In this document: positions 2,269 to 23,778 of the stretch, piece after piece | How positions within the stretch are numbered: position 1 is the stretch's first letter | Layout of the letters: each line of letters opens with the position of its first letter | Assembly (NCBI GenBank): GCA_012964825.1 | Contig: DTTI01000069.1 | Location: 1-64,000, forward strand | Origin: Candidatus Neomarinimicrobiota bacterium | GTDB taxonomy: Bacteria > Fidelibacterota > Marinisomatia > Marinisomatales > S15-B10 | Length of the DNA stretch: 64,000 nucleotides | Reading direction: 5' to 3' | Translations under genes and position numbers: made by a program | The notes under the pieces: generated by a model | Seen by the model: the letters and a program-made list of their open reading frames with translations, nothing else | Told to the model about the DNA's origin: nothing | The model's database searches: none

Positions 2269-3369
2269 CTAAGAGCCGAGTTTTACGGTCAGGGAATTGA
2301 CATTTTCGCCATCCCCATCTTTCAGTTCCACCAGCATGGTGTTCAGGACTGTATCGATGGTGATAAGACCGAAATTACTGTCCGGGTAGGTGGCGCCCAG
2401 GCGAAGGGGACCGTCCTCTTCCACAGGAAATGTATCAGCATTCAAGGGGCTAGAGGTGATCTCGTATATTTTGTTCCCGGCTGGCGTGGTCAATTGGTAC
2501 AGCCCGCCCCTGTGGCGGTCACCGGTGAGAAAAAGCATATTGTCCACGCTGTACTGATCCAGGAGAGACACAAACCTGTCCACTTCGTGGGGTAACATTC
2601 TCCAGCACTCCCAGCCATGGCCGGCGGCAAGGAACTGTATGGAGGATACGATAAGTCGATAATCGGCTGGTGCCTGTAGCTTGTCCTGCAGCCAGAGCCA
2701 CTGAGCAGAACCAAGTATGGATCGGGTCGTGTCGTTTGAGGCAAGGTACCGTTCCTTTCCGGCTGCCCCTTCTTCATCAGTGTGATCCAGCGGTCCCCGG
2801 AAATATCGGGTGTCCAGGTAAAGAAGCTGTACTGTTTTCCCGCCCAGATCCAGCCGCTGTTCCCTGTATAGACCGGGCCGAGTCCGCCGGACGTCATCTT
2901 CCGGGATCTCCCAGAAATCGAAGAACATTTTTTCCGTCTCCTCCTTGTGGGAATAATCTATGCCGCCGTCATTAATGCCATAGTCGTGATCATCCCAGAT
3001 CGCTTCCACGGGAAAGTCGGGACTCATAGCTGCGAAATTCTCTTTCTGTTTGGCGTAGGCACTCTCCATCCTGCTAAGCTCACCGCTGGGAGTATCTCCG
3101 TAAACGTTATCGCCGATCATGAGAAACATATCCGGTGCCGCAGCCTTTACTTCATCAAAAATGGCCATGGACTTGTCCTGGTCCAAGCAGGAGCCAAAAC
3201 CGATCTTTACCGATGTGCGGTCACCCAGGTGATCATAAGAGCGAGGAGAGAAAATTGCCTCCGTCTCTAAAGTCTGATGGCCGGAATCCTGTTTTCCAAC
3301 GTTGCCACAACCGATAGTAAAAAGAACGGAAAAAATGGCAAGCTCTGTTTTAAAAAAATGTGGTGTCAT
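2269..3369 (-). CDS. PhoD-like alkaline phosphatase, lipoprotein
   Basis: A metallophosphatase of the PhoD family that hydrolyses phosphomonoesters or diesters outside the cytoplasm. Visible motifs are GFGSC, MIGDNVYGD (metal ligands), WDDHDYG, LYLDTRYFR and FLTGDRHRGG (the C-terminal metal-binding histidine). I chose the ATG at 3369, which gives 366 residues with a lipoprotein signal ending in TIGC. An ATG 36 bases further upstream would add 12 residues before the hydrophobic core and spoil it. The length is short for PhoD because the usual N-terminal beta-sandwich domain is missing. The gene sits alone between tRNA-Lys and the repeat protein. Calcium or iron dependence cannot be read from the sequence. 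Confidence 0.88.
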   Translation of the reverse strand: MTPHFFKTELAIFSVLFTIGCGNVGKQDSGHQTLETEAIFSPRSYDHLGDRTSVKIGFGSCLDQDKSMAIFDEVKAAAPDMFLMIGDNVYGDTPSGELSRMESAYAKQKENFAAMSPDFPVEAIWDDHDYGINDGGIDYSHKEETEKMFFDFWEIPEDDVRRTRPGLYREQRLDLGGKTVQLLYLDTRYFRGPLDHTDEEGAAGKERYLASNDTTRSILGSAQWLWLQDKLQAPADYRLIVSSIQFLAAGHGWECWRMLPHEVDRFVSLLDQYSVDNMLFLTGDRHRGGLYQLTTPAGNKIYEITSSPLNADTFPVEEDGPLRLGATYPDSNFGLITIDTVLNTMLVELKDGDGENVNSLTVKLGS

Positions 3370-17747: not shown

Positions 17748-18026
17748 CTAAAGCAGACTTTCGACCACTTTGGCCATCTTTACATCACGCTCGGTAACAC
17801 CGCCGGAGTCGTGGCTTGTAAAGGTAATCTCCACACGGCACCACCCAATCTCTAGATCGGGATGGTGATTGTGTTCTTCTGCCTTTTCAGCAAGACGATT
17901 TACAAAAGTGATACCATCCATGTAAGCTTCAAAAGTGCACTTTTTCACAAGAGAATTATCGCCAAATGACCAGCCGGGAAGTTCCTGAAGGGCTCTGTCA
18001 ATCTTCTTCTGCTCCAATCTACCCAT
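17748..18026 (-). CDS. 4a-hydroxytetrahydrobiopterin dehydratase (pterin carbinolamine dehydratase)
   Basis: The 92-residue protein matches the full family length. It dehydrates 4a-hydroxytetrahydropterin so that the cofactor of aromatic amino acid hydroxylases can be recycled. The family motif is EEHNHHPDLEIGWCRVEI, with the catalytic histidines, followed by FTSHDSGGVTERD. The gene lies 22 nt downstream of the selenocysteine AhpD-like gene on the same strand and is likely cotranscribed. No phenylalanine hydroxylase is present in the window. Confidence 0.95.
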   Translation of the reverse strand: MGRLEQKKIDRALQELPGWSFGDNSLVKKCTFEAYMDGITFVNRLAEKAEEHNHHPDLEIGWCRVEITFTSHDSGGVTERDVKMAKVVESLL

Positions 18027-18048: not shown

Positions 18049-18618
18049 CTATGCGTTCCCGGTTGCCTGATCAACCTTTTCCATCTCTGGCTCCAAGTCA
18101 ACACCGAGGCCGTCAGCGATCCTGTTAATATAGTTAAAATAACTGATCACCTGTGCAGCATCGCTGATAGCTGACTGGCTGAATCCTTTCTGCCGTAAAT
18201 GTTCCACATCAGTCTGGGTCATCTTGTCGGGGGACTGGGTCAATTTTTCCGCCCATTGGCACAAGGCACGATCAGCTTCATCAAGCTCTGCCGACTTCCA
18301 GTCCCGTTTCAGCTGATCTGCCAGTTCATCATTCCCGACTTCAACACGGAAGTCTTCAACATGGGCCTCCACTCAGTAGAAACAGTCATTCATCCAAGAG
18401 ACTACCGCGGCCAGCATTTCTCGCTGTGCACGGGAAAGTTCCGATTCACCAAACATAATAGCCAGATACATCCGCATTGAGGCCTGAAGAGCTTGCGGGC
18501 TCCGGCTCATAATCTTCAAAATATTGTAGACCCTTCCACTCCGGCGGATACCTTTTTCATATTCAGCTTGAACAAGGCCTGCGGCATCTTCTGGTTTTAC
18601 GAGGTCAATATAAGCCAT
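18049..18618 (-). CDS. Selenocysteine-containing AhpD-like peroxidase-related enzyme
   Basis: An alkylhydroperoxidase of the AhpD/carboxymuconolactone decarboxylase fold. Reading through one UGA (18375-18373, codon 82) gives 189 residues that match the 'uncharacterised peroxidase-related' group along their whole length, including the C-terminal YFNYINRIADGLGVDLEPEM. The catalytic set is Glu67, Cys79, Sec82 and His86. The spacings of 12, 3 and 4 residues are the same as Glu118, Cys130, Cys133 and His137 of mycobacterial AhpD, so the second CxxC cysteine is replaced by selenocysteine (CFYU). A 6-bp stem-loop with the required geometry follows the UGA. The pterin dehydratase gene follows after 22 nt. 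The start ATG at 18618 has an AGGA-like site. Neither half alone would hold the active site. Confidence 0.94.
18337..18354 (-). promoter_or_regulatory. Bacterial SECIS element of the AhpD-like gene
   Basis: GACTTC (18354-18349) pairs perfectly with GAAGTC (18342-18337) around the 6-nt loop CGTGTT. The loop begins 25 nt after the UGA and its second base is G, both inside the known bacterial SECIS limits. The stem has no mismatch, although it lies in coding sequence. Confidence 0.85.
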
Positions 18619-18776: not shown

Positions 18777-19238
18777 ATGTCTGAGAAAGAAAACAATCTT
18801 GTAAAAACGGGTGACCAGGTTGACCTGAGTAAATATGTGGATGGCGAAGGAGGTATTTTCAGTGTGCGCCAACTGGAAAACATCAGAGGCTGGAACAATA
18901 TCCAGTACGGTGCCGGACTTTCAGAAAAAAATGTAAACTCCAAGAAACTTTCCATGAACATAGCTACAATCCCGGCCGGCGGGGTGGCCCTGGCCCACAT
19001 CCATGAGGACTTCGAAGTGATGATCTACCTATTGCAAGGGAGTGTCCGTCACGAATACGGTCCGGGATGCAAGAAATCGGTTATTCATGAGGCCGGAGAC
19101 ATGATATTCATCGAACCGGGGATTCCCCACGAGGTGTTTAACGTAAGCGATACAACCGAGGTGAAGGCGGTGGTTGCCCGATCCGACGCTTCAGAATGGG
19201 AAAATATCGTCCCCTACGATCGGAACACTGAGGACTAA
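18777..19238 (+). CDS. Cupin domain protein
   Basis: The 153-residue protein has a single cupin barrel. Motif 1 is GGVALAHIHEDFEVMIYLLQG and motif 2 is GDMIFIEPGIPHEVFN, so two or three histidines and a glutamate can bind a metal. I chose the ATG at 18777, preceded by AAAGGAG; the upstream codons lie in a non-coding-like stretch. There is no signal peptide, so it is cytoplasmic. It is divergent from the selenocysteine AhpD-like gene, with 158 bases between the two starts that must hold both promoters. Function could be dioxygenase, isomerase or sensor. Confidence 0.88.
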   Translation: MSEKENNLVKTGDQVDLSKYVDGEGGIFSVRQLENIRGWNNIQYGAGLSEKNVNSKKLSMNIATIPAGGVALAHIHEDFEVMIYLLQGSVRHEYGPGCKKSVIHEAGDMIFIEPGIPHEVFNVSDTTEVKAVVARSDASEWENIVPYDRNTED

Positions 19239-19299: not shown

Positions 19300-19737
19300 T
19301 TAGTGCTTCTTCTTTTTCATTTTATTGATAATCACTTTTTTCTGCTTTTTTCCATCTTCATTATCTTCATCAATCCATATTTCCATTTCCCCAGAACCAC
19401 CTTCAAATTTTCCGTGACCTGTGGTAATAACATGTACTTCGCCTTCCTCTGTAACCCACTTAATCCCCTCACCTGTTTCTTCAAAGTTGGAGGCATCCAC
19501 AGGCTTTCCGTTTACCGTTACATTGAGGATGGTATCACCATCAGTCACTTCCTTTTCAACTCTTACATCCATGGTTTTTCCAAAAGAAGCTGAAGTGTGG
19601 TCTCCATCATGTGCACCAATAAAAATGTGCTCATCATCATCTTCCAAGTGCATATTACTGAAAAGAATCAACCCTGCAGCCACAACGGCCAGGGCCAGAT
19701 ATTTCCAGAGCATATCCAGTTTCTCTTTTGTCGTCAT
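19300..19737 (-). CDS. Hypothetical membrane-anchored acidic protein
   Basis: The 145-residue protein has one membrane segment at residues 12-28 and then a very acidic soluble part (LEDDDEHIF and later IDEDNEDG) ending in a lysine-rich tail (NKMKKKKH). The middle region (about 50-115) looks like beta strands: VEKEVTDGDTILNVTVNGK and EEGEVHVITTGHGKFEGG. I do not recognise the family. The gene lies 45 nt downstream of the epimerase-like Tat substrate's start region on the opposite side of a compact minus-strand run, and it is convergent with the cupin gene. The anchor suggests a periplasmic location. Confidence 0.75.
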   Translation of the reverse strand: MTTKEKLDMLWKYLALAVVAAGLILFSNMHLEDDDEHIFIGAHDGDHTSASFGKTMDVRVEKEVTDGDTILNVTVNGKPVDASNFEETGEGIKWVTEEGEVHVITTGHGKFEGGSGEMEIWIDEDNEDGKKQKKVIINKMKKKKH

Positions 19738-20966: not shown

Positions 20967-22427
20967 TCAATTTATTTTTGGCGGCTGATTAAAACCGCCA
21001 CATACTTTTTCAAGCAGTTCCGCGAATTTTATTGTCGTCCGGTCCTCAAGATAGGGACCTACAATCTGTATACCAATAGGCAACCCATCTTCAGATAGTC
21101 CAATGGGTGCAACTGTGGCAGGAAGCTGAGCGTTGATGGCCAGTCCTGCCCACACCATCAGATCAAAATAAGGCCTTGGCTCGCCATTCACTATCAGTTT
21201 CCTCTGGAAAAAGTCGGGACTGTGATCGTGTTCAAACGCGGAGGTAACCGTTGTGGGACATAAGAGCACATCATAGTCGTGGAACAACTCGTGCCACTTC
21301 GCCCGGACACGGTGTCGCCGCTCATCGGCTGACAGCCAATCCTTGTGAGGAATCATTGACCCTCGGGCATGTCGAACAGGCAGAGAGTCATCTTCCGGAG
21401 TACTTCCTTCAACAAGTTTTTTCATTCCTGCAATTACATTCGGAGGGAAGCCTGTGGCGATGACAGGAGGAACGAGATTCCAGAAGATGCGGTCATTAAT
21501 CTCAAGAGTTATGTTGGGGTGAGTCTCCTCAATTTTTACACCATGTTTCGCCAGTTCATCCACCACCCCCTGAATAACATCTGCAATGGCTCTCTCCACA
21601 GAACAGTATGAATCATTTAGCCAGACGGCCACACGAAAATCATTCAGCGTCTCATGTCTCGATGGCGGCAGTTCCATTTTCCACGCCACACCGTCCATCA
21701 TTTTTGGTGCTACCAGTAATGAAAGAGCAAGTTCAAGGTCCTCTGGTGAACGGGCCAATGGGCCCGCAACGGAGAGGGTGTCACCATCATTCACACACCC
21801 GGGTGGTGGCGGGATGTGCCCCCGCATAGAGATGATGCCGTAGCTTGGTTTATGGCCGTATACTCCGCAAAAATGGGCCGGCGTTCGGATGGAGCCACCA
21901 ATGTCGCTGCCAATTTCTAACGGTGTCATTCCAGCCGCCAGCGCTGCCGCGGCGCCTCCCGAGGATCCGCCGGGTGTTCTGGTAATGTCCCACGGATTAT
22001 TTGTAGTCCCATAAACATCGTTAAAGGTTTGGAAATCGCCCGACAGCAGTGGGACATTTGTCTTCCCGAATACAATAGCTCCTGCATCCACGAGGCGCTG
22101 AACGGCGTCAGCGTTCCTCACTGGGAAGTGATCCTTCCATTTAGGAGATCCGCCGGTAGAGGCTATCCCTTCTACCTCAAAGGAATCTTTAACGGTCATG
22201 GGGAGACCATGTAGAGGGCCCCACGATTCACCCTGGGTGAGCGCTTCGTCAGCAGCCTTGGCTCGCTCCGTGGCCTGTTCGGCATCAGTTACCACAACTG
22301 CGTTGATCTCTTGATTACTCGCCTCGATTTTTCGAAGATGAATTTCAAGCAGCTCCAGAGCGGATATCTCCTTCTTCTGTATTTTCTCAAGCAAGCCAGT
22401 GGCGGTTTGATACAGATCGATGTTCAA
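20967..22427 (-). CDS. Amidase signature family enzyme
   Basis: This hydrolase of carboxylic amides uses the Ser-cisSer-Lys triad: Lys80 in MTVKDSFEVEG, Ser155 in TPGGSSGGAAAA and Ser179 in GSDIGGSIRTPAHF. I chose the TTG at 22427, seven bases after the permease stop, giving 486 residues that begin with the usual helix (DLYQTATGLLEKIQ). Longer readings start inside the permease gene and add unrelated residues. There is no signal peptide, so it is cytoplasmic. Coupling to an amino-acid permease suggests it hydrolyses an imported amide or N-carbamoyl compound. Confidence 0.9.
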   Translation of the reverse strand: MNIDLYQTATGLLEKIQKKEISALELLEIHLRKIEASNQEINAVVVTDAEQATERAKAADEALTQGESWGPLHGLPMTVKDSFEVEGIASTGGSPKWKDHFPVRNADAVQRLVDAGAIVFGKTNVPLLSGDFQTFNDVYGTTNNPWDITRTPGGSSGGAAAALAAGMTPLEIGSDIGGSIRTPAHFCGVYGHKPSYGIISMRGHIPPPPGCVNDGDTLSVAGPLARSPEDLELALSLLVAPKMMDGVAWKMELPPSRHETLNDFRVAVWLNDSYCSVERAIADVIQGVVDELAKHGVKIEETHPNITLEINDRIFWNLVPPVIATGFPPNVIAGMKKLVEGSTPEDDSLPVRHARGSMIPHKDWLSADERRHRVRAKWHELFHDYDVLLCPTTVTSAFEHDHSPDFFQRKLIVNGEPRPYFDLMVWAGLAINAQLPATVAPIGLSEDGLPIGIQIVGPYLEDRTTIKFAELLEKVCGGFNQPPKIN

Positions 22428-22431
22428 TAGA

Positions 22432-23778
22432 TCATCTCTCCATGGTGAGATCTCTGGCCAACCGGGCGTTATAATCAAATCCTTCGGCCTTCCCCTGCTG
22501 GCGGCCCACGAAAAAGAGAGCGCTCCCCACAGCCAGCCATAAGATTGTCCAAACAAAGACTGTCTTCAATATGGACACCATGAATATGAGCATGACGGCC
22601 GCTGAGAAAAGTCCAATGCCGATAACAATCAAAGGTGACGGCTTGAATTGAGCCGACTCATAGAGTGGCCGGTTGACTTTCGGCAGCATCATGAGTGCCA
22701 CCCCTTGAAGAAAATAGATGATGAAAATTCCGATGAGCCCCGTGTTTAAAAGAAATTGTGCTGATTGCGTCCATATAAGAACGATACAGATGACAGCACT
22801 GATGATTAGGCTAACGTAGGGTGTTCGCCATTTAGGATGGACCGCCGAGAAAAAACTGGGCATGAGACGATCTTCACTAAAGACAAAGAATATCCGTGAT
22901 GGGACAAGAATCGAACCGTTAATACTGGTCAAAAAAGCACTCATGGCTCCGAGAGCCACTATGCCGGCGCCCCAGGGTGGAAGATACACAGCCGCTGCAT
23001 CGGCCATGGCAGACTGGGATTGAGCCAATACTTCGGCGGGAAGAACCCCAAACGCCACAAAAGACATGAGAAAAAAGATGACCACTGACGCAAGAACACC
23101 TCTCACAAATATGACGGGTAACGTCCGTGTGGCGTCCTTGGTTTCTCCTGCCGTCTGGGCCAGCGTCTCAAAGCCGGCATAGCTGAAAAAGAGCACAGGC
23201 ATTGCCGACAGTAAGCCACCCCACCCTTTGGGCAGAATCGGGTCGTAATAGTTGAGGTCAACGGCTGCCAATCCCGGTACCACAAGCAGCACAATGCTGA
23301 TCATGAGAACAATCAGCATGCCAATCTGAACCCTGCCGTAATATTTGATCCCAAAAATGTTGATTCCATAAAAAACTAGCAGCACGATCACCGCCCAAAA
23401 ACGTGGATCCTGTCCCGGGATAAAGAAATTCATATATTCACCGAAACTGGTAGACATGAAAGAAATGGCTCCAACAAACGCCACCAGCTTCATCCACATA
23501 GCCACGAAACCGATGTAATAATTCCCGAACGTTCTGGAAATATGTAAATATGCACCGCCGGGGCGATTGCCAAGAGGTGTTGAAGAAAAAACACTGTACG
23601 CAAGAGCTGTGGCGAGAACAATGGGAGCAAACAGGAGATAGGCAAAGGGAACTGAACTCCCCGCCACAGCACCTGCCTCCCCCGTCACACGAAAGATGCC
23701 AGCGCCCACCAAAATACCAACAATGGTGGCGTAGCCGGAGAGAGAACCGAGATCACGACGGAGGGTTGAGTCACTCAT
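22432..23778 (-). CDS. APC family amino acid permease
   Basis: The 448-residue inner-membrane transporter has 12 membrane segments and the APC family start (LGSLSGYATIVGILVGAGIF). Members import or exchange amino acids and polyamines. The C-terminal tail is short and charged. The stop codon lies 4 nt before the amidase start, so the two genes probably form an operon. An upstream promoter must lie in the 142-nt gap shared with the divergent ornithine-cyclodeaminase-like gene. Confidence 0.93.
   Translation of the reverse strand: MSDSTLRRDLGSLSGYATIVGILVGAGIFRVTGEAGAVAGSSVPFAYLLFAPIVLATALAYSVFSSTPLGNRPGGAYLHISRTFGNYYIGFVAMWMKLVAFVGAISFMSTSFGEYMNFFIPGQDPRFWAVIVLLVFYGINIFGIKYYGRVQIGMLIVLMISIVLLVVPGLAAVDLNYYDPILPKGWGGLLSAMPVLFFSYAGFETLAQTAGETKDATRTLPVIFVRGVLASVVIFFLMSFVAFGVLPAEVLAQSQSAMADAAAVYLPPWGAGIVALGAMSAFLTSINGSILVPSRIFFVFSEDRLMPSFFSAVHPKWRTPYVSLIISAVICIVLIWTQSAQFLLNTGLIGIFIIYFLQGVALMMLPKVNRPLYESAQFKPSPLIVIGIGLFSAAVMLIFMVSILKTVFVWTILWLAVGSALFFVGRQQGKAEGFDYNARLARDLTMER

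Follow-up and report, generated by a model that had tools for sequence, protein, structure and literature searches.

A probable AhpD-like selenoprotein with a CFYU motif in an uncultured Fidelibacterota bacterium

The reading frame and its UGA codon

At one locus of the window (the whole 64,000-nucleotide stretch of Candidatus Neomarinimicrobiota DNA that was analyzed), a frame coding for an AhpD-like protein of the TIGR01926 family runs through a UGA codon, which raises the question of whether this codon ends a gene, disables one, or is read as selenocysteine. The gene lies on the minus strand at 18049..18618, extends from an ATG at 18618 to a TAG stop at 18051..18049 and specifies 189 residues; read on the forward strand, the same interval is meaningless. 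Its single in-frame TGA (18373..18375, minus strand) is codon 82, the predicted selenocysteine of a CFYU motif in the context ..NDCFYUVEAH.., and a scan of the whole window found no other convincing frame interrupted by a TGA as part of a CxxU or UxxC motif. ORF calling with translation table 11 yields two ORFs at this locus, 18373-18618 (81 aa) and 18049-18372 (107 aa), exactly as if there were two genes, one encoding a protein that ends at the UGA and the other starting from the GTG right after it. We regard two genes as extremely unlikely. The catalytic motif and a single AhpD fold span the UGA, homologues with a cysteine at this position are one uninterrupted ORF, and no start codon is conserved right after the UGA, where GTG, TTA, ACC, ATA, ATT, and other codons occur.

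The nearest public relatives belong to Candidatus Neomarinimicrobiota/Marinimicrobia, that is, the phylum Fidelibacterota. We base the comparison on a search of 245 genomes of this phylum, all from uncultured organisms (metagenome or similar assemblies), which gave matches in 65 genomes, after which near-identical copies were removed. The close orthologues, window gene included, form one clade (support 100/99), referred to here as group 1, and have TGA at the codon-82 column in 20 of 20 distinct sequences. A second group (group 2), approximately 32-44% identical to the window protein, contains 38 members with TGA at the same column, while 11 more distant members have TGC or TGT, and thus a cysteine, at this position. 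The recurrence of the UGA in one column across all group 1 orthologues and these group 2 members, together with its being the sole convincing candidate in the window, makes it more than a chance occurrence. The original prediction, made from the window alone, was of an AhpD-like gene in which UGA replaces the second CxxC cysteine; the alignment that it proposed as a check, with either Cys or Sec expected at the column, confirms it.

The gene is almost certainly not a pseudogene, nor is it likely that a nonsense mutation in an AhpD gene or a sequencing error has turned a cysteine codon (TGC/TGT) into TGA. The distinct orthologues that share the UGA come from separate assemblies, and the genome encodes a complete selenocysteine machinery (see below). 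Moreover, the half of the gene downstream of the UGA is under purifying selection and is as constrained as the upstream half, with dN/dS values against the sister species of 0.019/0.182 (about 0.10) after the UGA and 0.017/0.231 (about 0.08) before it. In favor of decay, one distant group 1 copy (L035/L048; genome G011, contig C20, about 2715-3261) is disrupted immediately past the UGA, where a palindrome has been inserted and the frame changes; it is probably either a pseudogene or the result of a repeat insertion. In the close relatives the gene is whole, with none of the frameshifts or missing 3' halves that the original prediction had named as marks of a pseudogene.

Several of these loci have features of their own. 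The UGA is preceded by a tyrosine codon that is TAC in all 38 group 2 genes and in 18 of 20 group 1 genes, which places a C directly before the UGA, possibly a decoding-context effect. Identical gene sequences occur at two loci (L023 and L029) whose genomes, G006 and G025, are assigned to different families, likely through cross-contamination between metagenome bins. A group 2 gene (L092; G227, C4) is interrupted by an additional in-frame TAG in the part encoding the C-terminal half, reflecting error or decay, and the second TGA that the search tool counted in some orthologues is simply their normal stop codon. At L085 (G186, C1), the UGA gene is in frame with a shortened isocitrate dehydrogenase. 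We rejected this as a fusion since the dehydrogenase profile covered 2-367 of 416 and the one-contig genome is 67% complete, making an assembly frameshift likelier.

The hairpin and the selenocysteine machinery

Bacterial SECIS elements are delimited by a loop of 3-9 nt, a stem of 4-16 bp, a G in the first two loop positions and a spacing of 16-37 nt (PMC13188914). The SECIS-type hairpin of the window gene (18337..18354, minus strand) has this geometry: GACTTC (18354-18349) and GAAGTC (18342-18337) form a 6-bp stem around the 6-nt loop CGTGTT (18348-18343; CGUGUU in the RNA), which has a G at position 2 followed by U and lies 24 nt from the UGA. The perfect stem and its loop had been described correctly in the original prediction, which placed them 25 nt after the UGA; this fits the loop, which runs from nucleotide 25, but not the stem, which starts 19 nt after the UGA. 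The structure prediction proposed there gives a divided answer, the geometry fitting and the energy being marginal. Folded alone, the hairpin (28 nt) has an energy of -6.8 kcal/mol, not quite as low as the published bSECIS limit (at most -7.5), and the 47-nt hairpin region (-10.2 kcal/mol, z -0.5) folds no better than shuffled sequences. Neither value is far from those of shuffles, and folding energy is not significant as evidence for a SECIS element.

The case for the hairpin is carried by a test of codon bias, in which the relatedness of the 20 group 1 genes is uncorrected. The stem phenylalanine is encoded by TTC in 20 of 20 genes, against 20 of 65 in the rest of these genes; the stem valine is GTC in 16 of 20 (32 of 190 elsewhere), and the stem aspartate GAC in 18 of 20 (57 of 213 elsewhere). 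The loop arginine is CGG or CGT in all 20, which keeps G-[G/U] in the loop. Across the 20 orthologues, the six stem pairs hold in 119 of 120 cells, a conservation that is weak when taken alone because most synonymous stem changes would leave a wobble pair. The synonymous-site analysis that had been suggested for this hairpin thus finds strong codon bias exactly there, along with the retained pairs.

Group 2 genes lack a hairpin of the window type and have instead an earlier one, with a G-rich loop approximately 17-18 nt after the UGA. In these genes a histidine codon covaries with an arginine or leucine codon (CAC with CGN, CAT with CTY, the register shifting by one base), the pattern that a maintained stem would produce. 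SECIS-type hairpins appear to lie at different distances from the UGA in group 1 (loop at nucleotide 25; 18354-18337 in the window) and in group 2 (e.g., L047), and the cysteine homologues keep neither. The earlier hairpin (CAY-GGG-GAY / TTC-CGN) was also considered for the window gene; it is partly formed in many orthologues, and we prefer the later one because the earlier is interrupted in the window (GTT GAA) and in other sequences. The window's genome itself holds a second AhpD-like UGA gene, with the motif CHYU (C57:6254-6802; L105, L046), whose product scores 156.3 bits against TIGR01926 and is 40% identical to the window protein. It lies directly behind a DUF2461 gene and carries its SECIS-type hairpin at a different position from that of the window gene. 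Apart from these two UGA genes, no gene with a CMD/AhpD domain was found in the genome.

All components for selenocysteine insertion are present in this 2.21-Mb genome, which is 97.6% complete: a tRNA-Sec with a UCA anticodon on C18 (63.9 bits), adjacent SelA and SelB genes on C58, and a SelD gene (C28:53031-53957; L014). As SelD has its own in-frame TGA, in the context G-A-G-U-A-C, the selenophosphate synthetase is probably a selenoprotein as well. A host of an AhpD-like selenoprotein would need these four components, and across the phylum, SelA is found in 49 of 53 genomes with the UGA form and in 128 of 192 others (Fisher p about 1e-4, relatedness not corrected); its absence from 4 of the 53 may be due to assembly gaps. 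The machinery also bears on whether the UGA might be read as Cys or Trp, through a variant code or a suppressor tRNA, rather than as Sec. Cysteine would fit the alignment equally, since homologues have it at this position. Such a reading is nevertheless very unlikely, given that the genome has tRNA-Sec(UCA), SelA, SelB and a SelD that itself contains UGA, that UGA is also the normal stop of several orthologues, and that codons are constrained in the hairpin region.

Selenocysteine thus remains the preferred reading of codon 82, and the parts and the conservation described above are consistent with a mechanism in which SelB and tRNA-Sec(UCA) would decode the UGA, with the hairpin beginning 19 nt further downstream as guide. 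Judging from the sequences, the window gene is very probably a genuine selenoprotein gene and not a pseudogene, and we consider it highly likely that a functional AhpD-like selenoprotein is encoded at 18049..18618.

Predicted fold, function and gene neighborhood

The window protein scores 150.6 bits against TIGR01926 over residues 3-177, well above the cut-off of 81.8 for family membership, and 32.5 bits against the AhpD core domain TIGR00778 (cut-off 27.8). It falls below the cut-offs of two models named for (seleno)proteins, the alkylhydroperoxidase-related NF041238 AhpD_rel_CFYUT (85.5 bits, cut-off 175) and the YciW-related NF053654 (25.3 bits, cut-off 310), and the canonical AhpD model TIGR00777 gave no match at E<=0.001. 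PF02627 matches as well. Gamma-carboxymuconolactone decarboxylase lacks the CxxC/peroxidase relay (PMC3141380), and the window protein belongs on the AhpD-like side despite the PF02627 match because it has the Glu-(12)-Cys-x-Tyr/His-Cys/Sec-(4)-His relay, as E67, C79, Y81, U82, and H86. Glu67, Cys79, Tyr81, Cys/Sec82, and His86 are invariant in an alignment of 18 sequences. The AlphaFold model built from these 18 aligned sequences, in which Cys stood in for Sec, has a pLDDT of 91.9 and a pTM of 0.86, and it replaced a poor single-sequence model (pLDDT 51.6). In this model, the window protein is an all-helical AhpD fold, whose best match in the PDB is 6k40 from Deinococcus radiodurans (TM 0.87, 34% identity), followed by 3c1l, 2oyo, 2prr, and 2pfx. 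The sequence search agrees with these structural matches to AhpD-like proteins.

The product would be a cytoplasmic AhpD-like thiol/selenol redox enzyme, with Sec82 in place of the second CxxC cysteine and Glu67, Tyr81, and His86 forming a proton relay. By the mechanism of AhpD, the selenolate of Sec82 would attack a peroxide or a disulfide, Cys79 would resolve the intermediate by forming a Cys79-Sec82 selenenylsulfide, and a thiol system of the cell would recycle the enzyme. Selenium probably confers faster chemistry or resistance to over-oxidation. The best mechanism, with activity and substrate inferred, would be a Sec-based thiol peroxidase or disulfide exchange, and the role would most likely be detoxification of peroxides or disulfides. 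As for the selenium-enhanced peroxide or thiol exchange enzyme of the original prediction, its core, a Sec-containing AhpD-like protein, is supported by conservation, Cys/Sec pairing, machinery, codon constraint, profile, and fold; peroxidase and thiol exchange are not separable by sequence. Peroxide reduction as the natural reaction is a tentative proposal, to which we give somewhat less than an even chance. The AhpD-like PA0269, which has been studied, is a weak peroxidase (PMC3141380).

The immediate neighbor of the UGA gene is a pterin-4a-carbinolamine dehydratase gene (17748..18026, minus strand), 22 nt downstream, followed by a convergent M20 amidohydrolase gene identified by profile match (TIGR01891; 16083..17744, plus strand). 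On the other side lie a divergent cupin-domain gene (18777..19238, plus strand), found in the same place in genera g1 and g2, an amidase gene (20967..22556, minus strand) and, overlapped by the latter at its 3' end, a gene for an APC-type amino-acid permease (22432..23778, minus strand). A 145-aa protein encoded at 19300-19737 (minus strand) has an N-terminal hydrophobic segment and a lysine-rich C terminus, and no Pfam or NCBIfam match. That the UGA gene is joined to the pterin dehydratase gene, as first noted, holds locally, where the two are on the same strand and the dehydratase is a possible operon partner. As a general functional partner it was rejected, the adjacency being confined to genera g1 and g2 among the orthologue neighborhoods examined.

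The APC permease is a more conserved neighbor than the pterin dehydratase. In the two related families f7 and f8, an APC permease lies 3-18 nt ahead of the UGA gene at 15 of 16 distinct loci, with the sole exception (L051) having 1.2 kb of upstream sequence without a permease. In the window's genome (genus g1), the permease is 3.8 kb upstream on the same strand as the UGA gene and is approximately 70% identical to an f7/f8 permease that directly precedes an orthologue. An amidase homologue is also found beside the UGA gene in G003 and G058, and in G058 the M20 hydrolase, amidase, permease, and Sec-AhpD genes are contiguous in that order. Several group 2 UGA genes have an APC permease directly downstream, approximately 26% identical to the f7/f8 set. 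This context suggests a role linked to the import and degradation of amino acids or amides. Since the APC permease, and sometimes amidohydrolases, are the conserved neighbors, the detoxification proposed above is perhaps tied to amino-acid and amide uptake.

The same neighborhoods would also fit a Sec protein of AhpD fold that does not naturally reduce peroxides but works in concert with the adjacent permease, reductively processing an imported compound that resembles an amino acid (a disulfide, sulfoxide, or halogenated substrate). The permeases directly upstream in f7/f8 and directly downstream in group 2, the gene order in G058, and the presence of the debrominase Bmp8 within the AhpD-like fold (6ohi, TM 0.79) speak for it. 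The distance to the permease in genus g1 speaks against it, and neighbors can reflect shared regulation only. We consider this unlikely, if less so than any of the readings above in which codon 82 is not selenocysteine. A broader version is more doubtful still and may be taken as a long shot: neither the window gene nor its paralogue would encode a general peroxidase, but both would encode Fidelibacterota selenoenzymes that are coupled to permeases and act reductively on an imported compound resembling an amino acid (e.g., a halogenated amino acid, a sulfoxide, or a disulfide), and their SECIS hairpins would have arisen or shifted separately in each line. Detoxification of peroxides or disulfides remains the role that we favor.

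Relation to known selenoproteins and AhpD-like proteins

In a brief search of part of the literature, we did not find the host phylum, the two UGA paralogues, their differing hairpin positions, or the permease context described. AhpD-like (TIGR01926) CxxU selenoproteins, known mainly from environmental reads, are now tied to a concrete uncultured phylum with a complete selenocysteine machinery. Because table-11 calling splits the UGA gene, selenium use in Fidelibacterota is easily under-annotated. The conserved permease neighbor offers a lead by which the natural substrate can be sought and tested, and homologous genes with hairpins at two positions make up a small natural experiment in SECIS origin.

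The family itself is known, and the original prediction was right that AhpD-like selenoproteins had been reported from marine metagenomes: 27 CxxU sequences were described from the Sargasso Sea (PMC1088965), AhpD-like 1 (COG2128) is among the commoner selenoprotein families of the GOS data with 299 sequences (PMC2398784), and a 2026 review lists AhpD-like selenoproteins under TIGR01926 (PMC13188914). As such CxxU proteins are already catalogued from ocean surveys, the window gene is a well-supported addition to a known family. It shares with the Sargasso Sea/GOS proteins the TIGR01926 profile, the CxxU motif, a SECIS-type hairpin after the UGA, cysteine homologues, and an origin in marine bacteria. 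Those surveys dealt with environmental reads; the present case adds a host phylum, a complete set of Sec components, a second UGA paralogue, and a gene neighborhood, and the hairpin position differs between two paralogue groups. With NF041238 AhpD_rel_CFYUT, the window protein has in common the AhpD core and CFYU and is homologous over residues 2-183; however, that model is 357 residues long, and the 189-aa protein matches only its C-terminal half.

The structures 6k40, 3c1l, 2oyo, 2pfx, and 2prr have the same fold and catalytic motif (TM 0.82-0.88) but a cysteine where the window protein has Sec, at the second CxxC position. AhpD from Mycobacterium tuberculosis and PA0269 from Pseudomonas aeruginosa have the same Glu-Cys-x-(His/Tyr)-Cys-His relay with identical spacing and differ in chain topology or length (PMC3141380). 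The predicted AhpD catalytic spacing of Glu67, Cys79, Sec82, and His86 is confirmed by PA0269, whose relay Glu36-Cys48-Tyr50-Cys51-His55 corresponds in spacing to Glu67-Cys79-Tyr81-Sec82-His86 of the window protein (PMC3141380).
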